IMG/VR virus record: IMGVR_UViG_3300047157_000243
Location: 1-64,000 of that record
Origin: a virus
Length of the DNA stretch: 64,000 bases
Direction: 5' to 3' (one strand)
Part shown: piece by piece, positions 32,476-64,000 of the stretch
Layout of the letters: each line of letters starts with the position of its first letter
Numbering within the stretch: the first letter of the stretch is position 1
Made by a program: the position numbers and the translations under genes
The notes under the pieces: model-generated
Told to the model about the DNA's origin: nothing
The model's database searches: none
The model's input: the letters and a program-made list of their open reading frames with translations, nothing else

Positions 32476-32552
32476 GGACGGGTAGCTCAGCTGGATAGAG
32501 CATCTGCCTTCTAAGCAGACGGTCGAAGGTTCGAATCCTTCTCCGTTCACCA
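32476..32552 (+). tRNA. tRNA-Arg (anticodon TCT)
   Basis: Cloverleaf: acceptor GGACGGG/TCCGTTC (two G-U pairs), D-stem GCTC/GAGC, anticodon stem TCTGC/GCAGA with loop CTTCTAA, T-stem GAAGG/CCTTC with TTCGAAT. CCA is encoded. It reads AGA, a common codon in AT-rich genomes. Confidence 0.95.
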
Positions 32553-32559
32553 TTTAATA

Positions 32560-32633
32560 GGGCCTCTAGCTCAGCTGGTTAGAGCAACTGACTCATAATC
32601 AGTAGGTCACAGGTTCGAACCCTGTGGGGCCCA
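32560..32633 (+). tRNA. tRNA with anticodon CAT (Met elongator or Ile2)
   Basis: Acceptor GGGCCTC/GGGGCCC, D-stem GCTC/GAGC, anticodon stem ACTGA/TCAGT with loop CTCATAA, T-stem ACAGG/CCTGT. The paired G1-C72 argues against initiator fMet. Ile2 (lysidine-modified) and elongator Met cannot be separated by eye. No encoded CCA. It lies 7 nt after tRNA-Arg. Confidence 0.93.
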
Positions 32634-32640
32634 CTCAAAT

Positions 32641-36742: not shown

Positions 36743-36764
36743 AATTTTTAATTTTAATTAAATG

Positions 36765-36838
36765 TGGAGGATATCGGAGTCGAACCGATGACCTCCTGCG
36801 TGCAAGGCAGGCGCTCTAGCCAGCTGAGCTAATCCCCC
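36765..36838 (-). tRNA. tRNA-Ala (anticodon TGC)
   Basis: On the minus strand: acceptor GGGGGAT/ATCCTCC, D-stem GCTC/GAGC, anticodon stem CCTGC/GCAGG with loop CTTGCAC, T-stem ATCGG/CCGAT with TTCGACT. Discriminator A, no encoded CCA. A TATTTAT element lies 12 nt upstream. Confidence 0.93.
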
Positions 36839-38503: not shown

Positions 38504-38902
38504 ATGAGTAATTTAAAAGATAAAATATCAGAAGACTTCATGAAAGCTTTTAAAGCTAAAGACATGGATAAAAAGAATTTTCTTGGTGTAATTAAAGGAG
38601 AGATTCAATTGCAAGAAGGTAGGGGAATAGATTCTACTGATGAAAATGTTTTAAAAGTTTTGAAAAAAATAGAAAAATCTTTAAAACAAACAAATACTAA
38701 AGAGACAAAAAAGGAACTTAGTTATATTAAAAAATATCTACCAGAACAAATGGATGAAAAAAGAATAAAAGAAATTATTCTTGAATACACAAATTCTGGA
38801 TTGGGTAATGTTGGTCAAATAATGGGAAAATTTAACAAAGAACACAAAGGTAAGGCGGATAATAAGTTGGTATCTGAAATAGTTAAATCTATTCTAAATT
38901 AA
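38504..38902 (+). CDS. yqeY: GatB/YqeY-domain protein
   Basis: 132 residues, ATG at 38504. Full-length match by eye to the YqeY family: LKDKISEDFMKAFKAKD at the start, NFLGVIKGEIQLQEG, LSYIKKYLPEQMDE, and IMGKFNKEHKGKADNKLVSE at the end. YqeY is related to the tail domain of the GatB amidotransferase subunit, which contacts tRNA; its own role is unclear. Here it sits in a phage that also carries tRNAs and an aminoacyl-tRNA synthetase. Confidence 0.85.
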   Translation: MSNLKDKISEDFMKAFKAKDMDKKNFLGVIKGEIQLQEGRGIDSTDENVLKVLKKIEKSLKQTNTKETKKELSYIKKYLPEQMDEKRIKEIILEYTNSGLGNVGQIMGKFNKEHKGKADNKLVSEIVKSILN

Positions 38903-61629: not shown

Positions 61630-61904
61630 TAATCAAATCTTTTCAAATCTCAAAAAGAGAGGCTGAAAAAAGATTGTCTTCTACATTACAACATAAATTA
61701 AGAGTTGTGATGAAGTGTTATACTATAAATAACTTTTCTATAAATGAAGAAAATAGTACATTTTCTTTCAATAAAACAAATAGAATAAGAGGTATAGTAA
61801 TAAAAGATAAAAACACATTTTCAGGAACGTATGACTTGTTAAAGAGCGAAGAGCCAGAATATGACATGGAATATAACTTAACAATTAACGTAGGCAATTT
61901 ATAA
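61626..61904 (+). CDS. Hypothetical protein (92 aa)
   Basis: ATG at 61626 overlapping the AT-hook gene stop. Basic N-terminal helix (ISKREAEKRLSSTLQHKLRV), then beta strands. Stop overlaps the next ATG by 1 nt. Not recognised. Confidence 0.45.
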   Translation: MIIKSFQISKREAEKRLSSTLQHKLRVVMKCYTINNFSINEENSTFSFNKTNRIRGIVIKDKNTFSGTYDLLKSEEPEYDMEYNLTINVGNL

Positions 61905-62578
61905 TGTCAAAAAAAGCCAGCAAAAGAGAGAAGCAGATAATGAAAACTATGGGCATAGATTTAGTTACAACTAAGTCTATAACTGAAATAGGTAGAATAT
62001 CTGGAACCCATAAGTATGATGTTTGGATTGGTAGAGAGGTTTCAAAAAATTTAGAGTTAATAAATCAACAAAGTGATTTTCAATTTATAATAGATTGGGC
62101 AACAAAAGATAGACCAGATATATTTTCACTAACTTTTGAGGAAGCAATGAGCTCGTCAGAGGAGTGGCACAACAATCTAAAAACAACAGGTAAGTACAGA
62201 ATTTTCGAGGAAGACAAGGATGAAAAAAGAGTCGTTTATGTCAGTAGGGATAAGAATTTCTTTTTTATGTTATTAAACGTTAATGAGCTGGATGCTGAAG
62301 GAGATATAATGCGTAACTGTATAAGTTCATACAAAAACAGAGTAATCAAAGGGCATTCGATTATAATTTCTATGAGAGACAGTAAGAATCAGCCTCACGT
62401 TACCATAGAGGTAGATGTTAGAACTAGTTCTGTAACTCAAGTTAGAGGAAAGGCAAACACCAGCCCATCTAAAGAATATATGAAAATAATAACTGAATTT
62501 GCATTACATGTTAGTGGTTTTGATGAACATTTAGATGAAGAAGTTGTAGACCTAATCAATTTAAAGTTTGAAGATTAG
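61904..62578 (+). CDS. PcfJ-like protein (224 aa)
   Basis: ATG at 61904. N-terminal helical part; from about 125 FFFMLLNVNELDAEGDIMRN, then CISSYKNRVIKGHSIIISMR, HVTIEVDVRTSSVTQVRGKAN and a final helix. The M.NC..SY...V..G...i.s.R....H.T.Ev......QvrGk.N pattern is the PcfJ-like core, here without the zinc-finger N-terminus of the 642-aa relative. Function unknown; part of an overlapping three-gene run. Confidence 0.7.
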   Translation: MSKKASKREKQIMKTMGIDLVTTKSITEIGRISGTHKYDVWIGREVSKNLELINQQSDFQFIIDWATKDRPDIFSLTFEEAMSSSEEWHNNLKTTGKYRIFEEDKDEKRVVYVSRDKNFFFMLLNVNELDAEGDIMRNCISSYKNRVIKGHSIIISMRDSKNQPHVTIEVDVRTSSVTQVRGKANTSPSKEYMKIITEFALHVSGFDEHLDEEVVDLINLKFED

Positions 62579-62609: not shown

Positions 62610-62632
62610 TTTTGAATCAAACAATTTTAATT

Positions 62633-63670
62633 ATGAGCAATAAAAACTGCAACATCACAAAATCAATAAGGGAAAAGATGGGTAGAAACATCCATAACAC
62701 CCAAAATCATCCAATTAAAATAATTAAAGATAAAATATACGAATATTTCGGTGAGTCTTTTGAAAAGTTTGATTCTTTTGAACCTAAAGTAAATGTTGTA
62801 GAAAATTTTGACAAATTACTAATACAAAAAGAACACCCAGCGAGAAGCTTGTCTGATACATATTATTTTGATGAAAACACTTGTTTAAGAACTCATACTT
62901 CAGCTCATCAAAACGAGTTATTATCTAAAGGTTGTGAAAAATTTCTTGTAACAGGAGATGTTTATAGAAAAGATGAGATAGACAGTTCTCATTATCCTGT
63001 ATTTCATCAAATGGAAGGAGTTTGTATTGTTGAAGATAATGAAAATGTTCAAGAAGAATTTAAAAACAAATTAATTGGGCTAGTTGATTATTTGTTTCCT
63101 GGGTGTGAGTATAGATTTAATGATGATTATTTTCCTTTTACAGACCCATCTCTTGAAATTGAGGTTAAGTTTAATGGAGAGTGGTTAGAGATAATGGGAG
63201 GGGGAATTGTTCAAGGTAAAATAATGGAAAACTGTGGACTCAAAAATAAGAAAGCTTGGGCTTTTGGTTTAGGGTTAGAAAGGTTGGCTATGATTTTATT
63301 TAACATACCTGATATAAGATATTTTTGGACAACAGACGAAAGATTCTTAAATCAGTTTAAGTCAGGTGAAATTGTAGATTTTAAAGAGTATTCCAAATAT
63401 CCACCTTGCTCAAAAGATGTAGCTTTTTGGCTAAATGATGAATACAATTATAATGACTTTTGTGAAATAGTTAGAGAAATGGGTGGAGATTTTGTTGAAG
63501 AAATATCTTTATTAGATAAGTTTACTAATCCAAAAACAAACAAAATCTCTCATTGTTACAGAATCACTTATCGTTCAAATGATAGAAGTTTAACAAATGA
63601 AGAAATTGACGAAGTTCAAATTAAGGTTAGAAATCTACTAAAAGAGCAAATGAAATTAGAGCTTAGATGA
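62633..63670 (+). CDS. Single-chain, mitochondrial-type phenylalanyl-tRNA synthetase
   Basis: 345 residues, ATG at 62633. A class II core: HPARSLSDTYYF, motif 2 RTHTSAHQNELL (86-93), TGDVYRKDEID, FHQMEGV (124-130), a FPFTDPSLEIEV strand, LEIMGGGIV and motif 3 GLGLERLAMIL (212-222). From about 255 a complete FDX-ACB anticodon-binding domain follows: DVAFWLNDEYNYNDF, IVREMGGDFVEEISLLDKF, SHCYRITYRSNDRSLTNEE. Bacteria normally have separate PheS and PheT, with FDX-ACB at the end of PheT. This PheS-FDX-ACB fusion is the layout of mitochondrial FARS2. No editing domain. Confidence 0.92.
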   Translation: MSNKNCNITKSIREKMGRNIHNTQNHPIKIIKDKIYEYFGESFEKFDSFEPKVNVVENFDKLLIQKEHPARSLSDTYYFDENTCLRTHTSAHQNELLSKGCEKFLVTGDVYRKDEIDSSHYPVFHQMEGVCIVEDNENVQEEFKNKLIGLVDYLFPGCEYRFNDDYFPFTDPSLEIEVKFNGEWLEIMGGGIVQGKIMENCGLKNKKAWAFGLGLERLAMILFNIPDIRYFWTTDERFLNQFKSGEIVDFKEYSKYPPCSKDVAFWLNDEYNYNDFCEIVREMGGDFVEEISLLDKFTNPKTNKISHCYRITYRSNDRSLTNEEIDEVQIKVRNLLKEQMKLELR

Positions 63671-63782: not shown

Positions 63783-64000
63783 ATGAAATTTAAATTAAAA
63801 GAATCATTAATAAAATACAACCTTTTAAAAGAAGGGTGGATGCAAGATTTGGAAGGGCAATACGATGAAGACCTGCTGATATTTGTGGGAAGAATGCTTC
63901 AGAAAATTTATGGAAGCGAAAATATAGAAAATCACAAATTAGCTCCATGGATTGCTGAAGTTACAAAAACATTAGGAAAAGCACCTTATGACATTGACGC
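63783..64000 (+). CDS. Tagged protein, cut by the window edge
   Basis: ATG at 63783, open to the right edge (72 codons). MKFKLKESLIKYNLLKEGWM has two LKE sites in a basic amphipathic helix, as in the other tags. It continues LEGQYDEDLLIFVGRML, IYGSENIENH and APWIAEVTKTLG. Not recognised; likely another virion-type protein. Confidence 0.55.
   Translation, partial: MKFKLKESLIKYNLLKEGWMQDLEGQYDEDLLIFVGRMLQKIYGSENIENHKLAPWIAEVTKTLGKAPYDID

Follow-up and report, generated by a model that had tools for sequence, protein, structure and literature searches.

The locus and its genomic setting

The DNA analysed here (the window) comprises positions 1-64000 of a 75,015-bp IMG/VR record, which is itself a fragment. 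Close to the right-hand end of the window lies a gene for a complete, one-chain phenylalanyl-tRNA synthetase (PheRS) of the FARS2 type, carried by a large bacterial virus (Table 1). The open reading frame begins with ATG and encodes 345 aa; an alternative in-frame TTG start at 62612 would add 7 aa.

Table 1 Features of the PheRS gene, its neighbours and other translation-related genes (window coordinates)
Feature	Position	Strand	Basis
Single-chain phenylalanyl-tRNA synthetase (345 aa, FARS2-type)	62633..63670	+	Pfam, NCBIfam, PDB, AlphaFold2
PheS-like class II catalytic domain, residues 17-242	62681..63358	+	Pfam PF01409 tRNA-synt_2d, E 1.5e-56
FDX-ACB anticodon-binding domain, residues 254-345	63392..63667	+	Pfam PF03147, E 1.6e-22
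PcfJ-like protein, conserved left neighbour, directly upstream	61904..62578	+	PF14284
769-aa phage protein (5' part; extends beyond window end), conserved right neighbour	63783..64000	+	Homologues adjoin PheRS in G001, G002 and G004
tRNA-Arg(TCT) and tRNA-Met(CAT)	32476..32634	+	tRNA search of window
tRNA-Ala(TGC)	36764..36838	-	tRNA search of window
YqeY-like gene	38504..38902		

The gene sits in a conserved neighbourhood. The window is collinear over nearly its full length with two related records, G001 (68.8 kb) and G003 (72 kb); with two larger ones, G002 (212 kb) and G004 (222 kb), collinearity is seen around the PheRS gene. The PcfJ-like left neighbour occupies the equivalent position in all four and is 65% (G001), 62% (G003), 43% (G002) and 44% (G004) identical. 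A second PcfJ-like protein is encoded in the same phage record (L002:11594-13876), and an M42 glutamyl aminopeptidase-like gene lies at the record end (L002:14422-15015). The PheRS gene is under purifying selection, with dN/dS values of 0.08 against L005 and 0.11 against L003, both at dS near saturation.

Genes for an endolysin-like lysis protein, SbcCD, a primase and a helicase are found in the window, and no capsid or terminase gene was found in the 75-kb record itself. The evidence for a tailed bacteriophage is at the level of the lineage: G004, collinear at the PheRS locus, encodes a T4-type Gp23 capsid protein (E 2.3e-72), and a terminase is present in 12/20 related records. Short, broken pieces of T4-type Gp23 also occur in two contigs collinear with the window (G001:25543-26297 and G003:16799-17719). 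Only 2/58 ATG genes have a Shine-Dalgarno-like motif, which is not above the 7.5% background. Leaders lacking Shine-Dalgarno enrichment fit Bacteroidota-type initiation, and on this leader composition, the sole basis for a host assignment, the large tailed phage probably infects Bacteroidota.

Domain architecture and predicted structure

The class II core and the FDX-ACB domain lie in one polypeptide, as the initial annotation had read from the sequence; Pfam and NCBIfam bear this out, and the profile search that it had proposed for the FDX-ACB domain located it at the C-terminus. The protein scores 365 bits on TIGR00469 (pheS_mito), passing the curated equivalog cut-off of 258. It does not belong to bacterial PheST, in which a PheS with an N-terminal extension is separate from PheT, as it reaches 181 bits on TIGR00468 (pheS) with a cut-off of 237 and has no PheT, and the pheT model gives 65 bits against a cut-off of 403. 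Membership of the SrmL family (NF051887) was likewise rejected, at 246 bits against a cut-off of 300. In a sequence search of the PDB human FARS2 was the best match (E ~1e-100), the next family being bacterial PheS (6e-42).

The predicted structure agrees with this assignment. The AlphaFold2 model of the 345-aa protein has a pLDDT of 90.8, and structural comparison, which had been suggested as a check, returned human FARS2 for all of the best PDB folds (TM 0.91-0.92, 41% identity), while bacterial PheS matched over the core only (TM ~0.58). The catalytic residues H88, S90, R112, Q126, E128, F167/F169 (the FPF pair), A210 and the motif-3 R217 are kept in 11/11 group A phage enzymes; group B phage enzymes carry S90T and E128D. 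Human FARS2 reads G34 of its tRNA through Asp364, Phe366, Ser375 and Arg414 (PMC7540514). The counterparts in the window enzyme are D295, F297, S306 and R345, with identical spacing, and these positions are kept among the phage enzymes, apart from a Tyr that replaces F297 in one enzyme and a single truncated sequence. In the window enzyme the residues of the phenylalanine pocket and those corresponding to the G34 readers are all conserved.

The window enzyme resembles human FARS2 (TIGR00469; PDB 3CMQ, 5MGW, 3TUP) in having a PheS core and FDX-ACB domain in one chain with no editing domain, in its fold (TM 0.92) and G34-contact residues, and in sequence, with 45% identity across the part aligned by BLAST. 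It differs in being phage-encoded, in having neither a targeting sequence nor the eukaryotic insert (345 aa vs a 451-position model), and in branching outside the eukaryotic pair.

PheT, tRNAs and other synthetases

A PheT gene elsewhere in the genome would have spoken against a self-sufficient enzyme. None was found across 17 records, namely the window's own 75-kb fragment and 16 related records, some of them larger. The sole match to the PheT model in 16/17 is the FDX-ACB domain of the PheRS gene itself; in G003 the gene is cut by the contig end and there is no match. Since PheT is absent, so is the editing domain, within the fragment and in the larger relatives alike. Both PF00587 and PF00133 synthetase families are missing in 17/20 records, so that in most of them the PheRS is unaccompanied by those aminoacyl-tRNA synthetases (aaRS).

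The tRNAs and YqeY-like gene mentioned in the initial annotation are real. Its statement that there is no tRNA-Phe holds for the window, but not for the record: a search of the remainder located three units resembling tRNA-Phe(GAA) at 69927-70275 of the record (L002:9928-10276), ~6 kb past the end of the PheRS gene. They are arranged in tandem, two being nearly identical, and score 31-34 bits vs ~70 for other tRNAs. Their acceptor and anticodon stems are intact, whereas the T-arms are odd, with a bulge of 2-3 nt in the 5' T-stem. In units 1 and 3 neither the D-loop GG nor the usual T-loop is present (bulge and loops were read by eye), and unit 2 has a 46-nt insert. Pseudogenes, assembly errors and unusual tRNAs are all candidate explanations for these units. 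In the stretches surveyed, tRNA-Phe is present in 8/15 related records, with a canonical copy in the nearest relative, G003, and none seen in G001 or G004.

Viral and cellular relatives

Three query sets converged on 30 other IMG/VR loci with a single-chain PheRS, making 31 viral contigs in all. These reach up to 536 kb and many have T4-type capsid or terminase genes. Using the organellar-type sequence L074 (see below) as query gave no additional viral relatives. The matches in named phage records were all PheS-type or divergent, none spanning 80% of the query; an uncultured phage record of 634,780 bp (L147, LR745206.1) encodes a PheS-like protein that is very divergent (27% identity) and may have an FDX-ACB-like region at its C-terminus. 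Group B phages (L009-L018; records G007-G016) have as many as 65 tRNA genes in a single record. CTA-anticodon tRNAs occur in several of these records and TTA-anticodon tRNAs in one, which suggests stop-codon recoding.

The initial annotation took the single-chain form to be that of mitochondria, as opposed to the tetramer of bacteria and archaea, and this premise did not survive. Full-length homologues 50-53% identical to the window enzyme are encoded in Bacteroidota isolates (GTDB genomes) and match NCBIfam NF051887, the "PheS-related mystery ligase SrmL". Like the window enzyme, these close cellular relatives are single chains with both domains; they differ in being chromosomal, with PheST elsewhere in the genome (normal PheS and PheT in 6/6 genomes checked). 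H88Q is found in 10/12 and E216D in 12/12 SrmL proteins, whereas the window enzyme keeps H88 and E216. SrmL-type paralogues (L059-L073, L075) include two in Sphingobacterium tabacisoli, and the five neighbourhoods listed appear to differ.

Single-chain PheRS was also found with a protein query in ~12/145 sampled Patescibacteria; TIGR00469 at E 1e-60 had given no matches there, the threshold being too strict. The observation covers L076, L077 and L127-L138. PheT was found in 0/13 of the Patescibacteria checked, and six of these have an adjoining ORF resembling PheT residues 41-151 (TRBD). The clade (L076, L077, L128-L137) shares the architecture of the window enzyme and its lack of PheT, but is 37-42% identical to it, sits on a long branch and provides the only PheRS found in the genome. 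It is possibly an unreported case of bacteria with a single-chain enzyme as their sole PheRS.

A further relative, L074 (PBDU01000016.1), is an organellar-type PheRS 51% identical to the window enzyme, on a contig assigned to a MAG labelled Euryarchaeota. Its neighbours, judged by eye, are eukaryote-type (mitochondrial ATP synthase beta, RPB9 and CAF1), and the contig is probably mis-binned and the gene eukaryotic.

Phylogeny and the origin of the compact enzyme

Two trees were built with different outgroups and sampling, in which eukaryotes are represented by human FARS2 and L074 only, one of them partly rebuilt from PDB alignments. In both, these two enzymes fall inside the phage diversity, with moderate support (84-87), and Patescibacteria lie outside all others. 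AU tests rejected neither phage monophyly (p 0.127, 0.062) nor placement of the eukaryotes outside phages plus SrmL (p 0.305, 0.216). A viral origin of the compact enzyme, one of the possibilities initially raised, is therefore favoured by the topology but left unproven by the tests; as phage monophyly is not rejected, a phage-to-mitochondrion transfer is possible but unproven.

That a phage lineage captured a eukaryote's organellar PheRS gene, also raised at the outset, we consider improbable. Such a capture would fit the observations that, among enzymes characterised by experiment, mitochondrial ones are the closest, and that L074 shares 51% identity with the window enzyme. However, making the window clade sister to the eukaryotic pair was rejected (AU p 0.010), in a post hoc test chosen after the tree had been seen and involving two eukaryotic sequences; those two sequences are surrounded by a broad spread of phages in both trees, and the place of the gene is fixed in several phage genomes. 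The family appears to be old and common to organellar FARS2, the SrmL proteins of Bacteroidota and the Patescibacteria clade, which speaks against a recent eukaryotic source. An artefact, whether a chimeric assembly or viral DNA with a cellular gene attached, has a negligible chance of explaining the locus. The sequence is a fragment of a metagenomic contig, for which such a join had been flagged as a risk, but the same gene with the same flanks recurs in independently assembled records from other metagenomes, its GC content (29.7%) is close to that of the window (31.5%), and synteny in G001, G002, G003 and G004 rules the join out.

Proposed function

Two other readings concern the task of the enzyme. 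In one, which is very unlikely, the protein would be an SrmL-like ligase with a non-translational job instead of tRNA charging, as the homologues in Bacteroidota that match SrmL and coexist with normal PheST might suggest; yet the window protein falls short of the SrmL model while passing pheS_mito, and it keeps the G34 readers together with H88 and E216, which are Q (10/12) and D (12/12) in SrmL. In the other, the enzyme would be dedicated to the phage's own tRNA-Phe-like genes, whose aberrant products the host tetramer could not charge. The GAA anticodons, intact stems and atypical T- and D-arms of the three units agree with this, as does the dependence of human mitochondrial PheRS mainly on G34 (PMC7540514). 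The low scores of these units, which may be pseudogenes or assembly errors, and the insert in unit 2 count against it, as do the canonical tRNA-Phe of G003 and the finding that no viral contig has an exact copy of the anticodon arm, and we regard it as very unlikely.

We favour, with a probability of about 0.82, a working, self-sufficient single-chain PheRS that belongs to a tailed phage lineage, was not recently captured from a eukaryote and charges tRNA-Phe during infection. The PheS-like core would activate phenylalanine and the FDX-ACB domain would read G34 of tRNA-Phe, such that one 345-aa polypeptide could do the job of the host PheS2PheT2 tetramer. Within the infected cell, we infer, it would charge host and/or phage tRNA-Phe on its own, supplementing the host enzyme without depending on it. 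Charging would rely on G34 and the acceptor end. Charging of tRNA-Phe during infection without an editing domain is the most likely role of the protein. A phage might attend to phenylalanine in order to escape a host PheST that is limiting or under attack, to supply late translation, or to charge a phage tRNA-Phe that is a poor substrate for the host enzyme.

Significance

The one-piece PheRS is the mitochondrial form in textbooks. A 2010 review of PheRS structures likewise assigns the monomer to mitochondria and describes the tetramer as conserved across every known prokaryote (PMC3275996). Huge-phage aaRS have been described as related to those of their hosts, in a main text that does not mention PheRS (Al-Shayeb 2020, PMC7162821). 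The window enzyme resembles these in being a phage-borne translation enzyme found together with tRNAs, and differs in not being a host-type PheST. Phage aaRS and FARS2 are thus both already known, whereas no phage family of FARS2-type enzymes, and no report of a single-chain PheRS in phages or Patescibacteria, was found in the main texts of the open literature searched.

The 31 viral contigs, with the bacteria that have no other detectable PheRS, break the rule that the monomer is mitochondrial and the tetramer prokaryotic. Phage descent has already been proposed for the mitochondrial RNA and DNA polymerases. We suggest, tentatively and as a possibility rather than an expectation, that eukaryotic mitochondrial PheRS may descend from a phage enzyme of this single-chain family, phages being the reservoir for both FARS2 and SrmL. 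The missing relatives of the organellar enzyme are now supplied, which makes the origin of mitochondrial PheRS newly testable. With the family comes a compact PheRS/tRNA-Phe pair that is possibly orthogonal, and by means of its enzyme the phage may bypass the PheST of its host.
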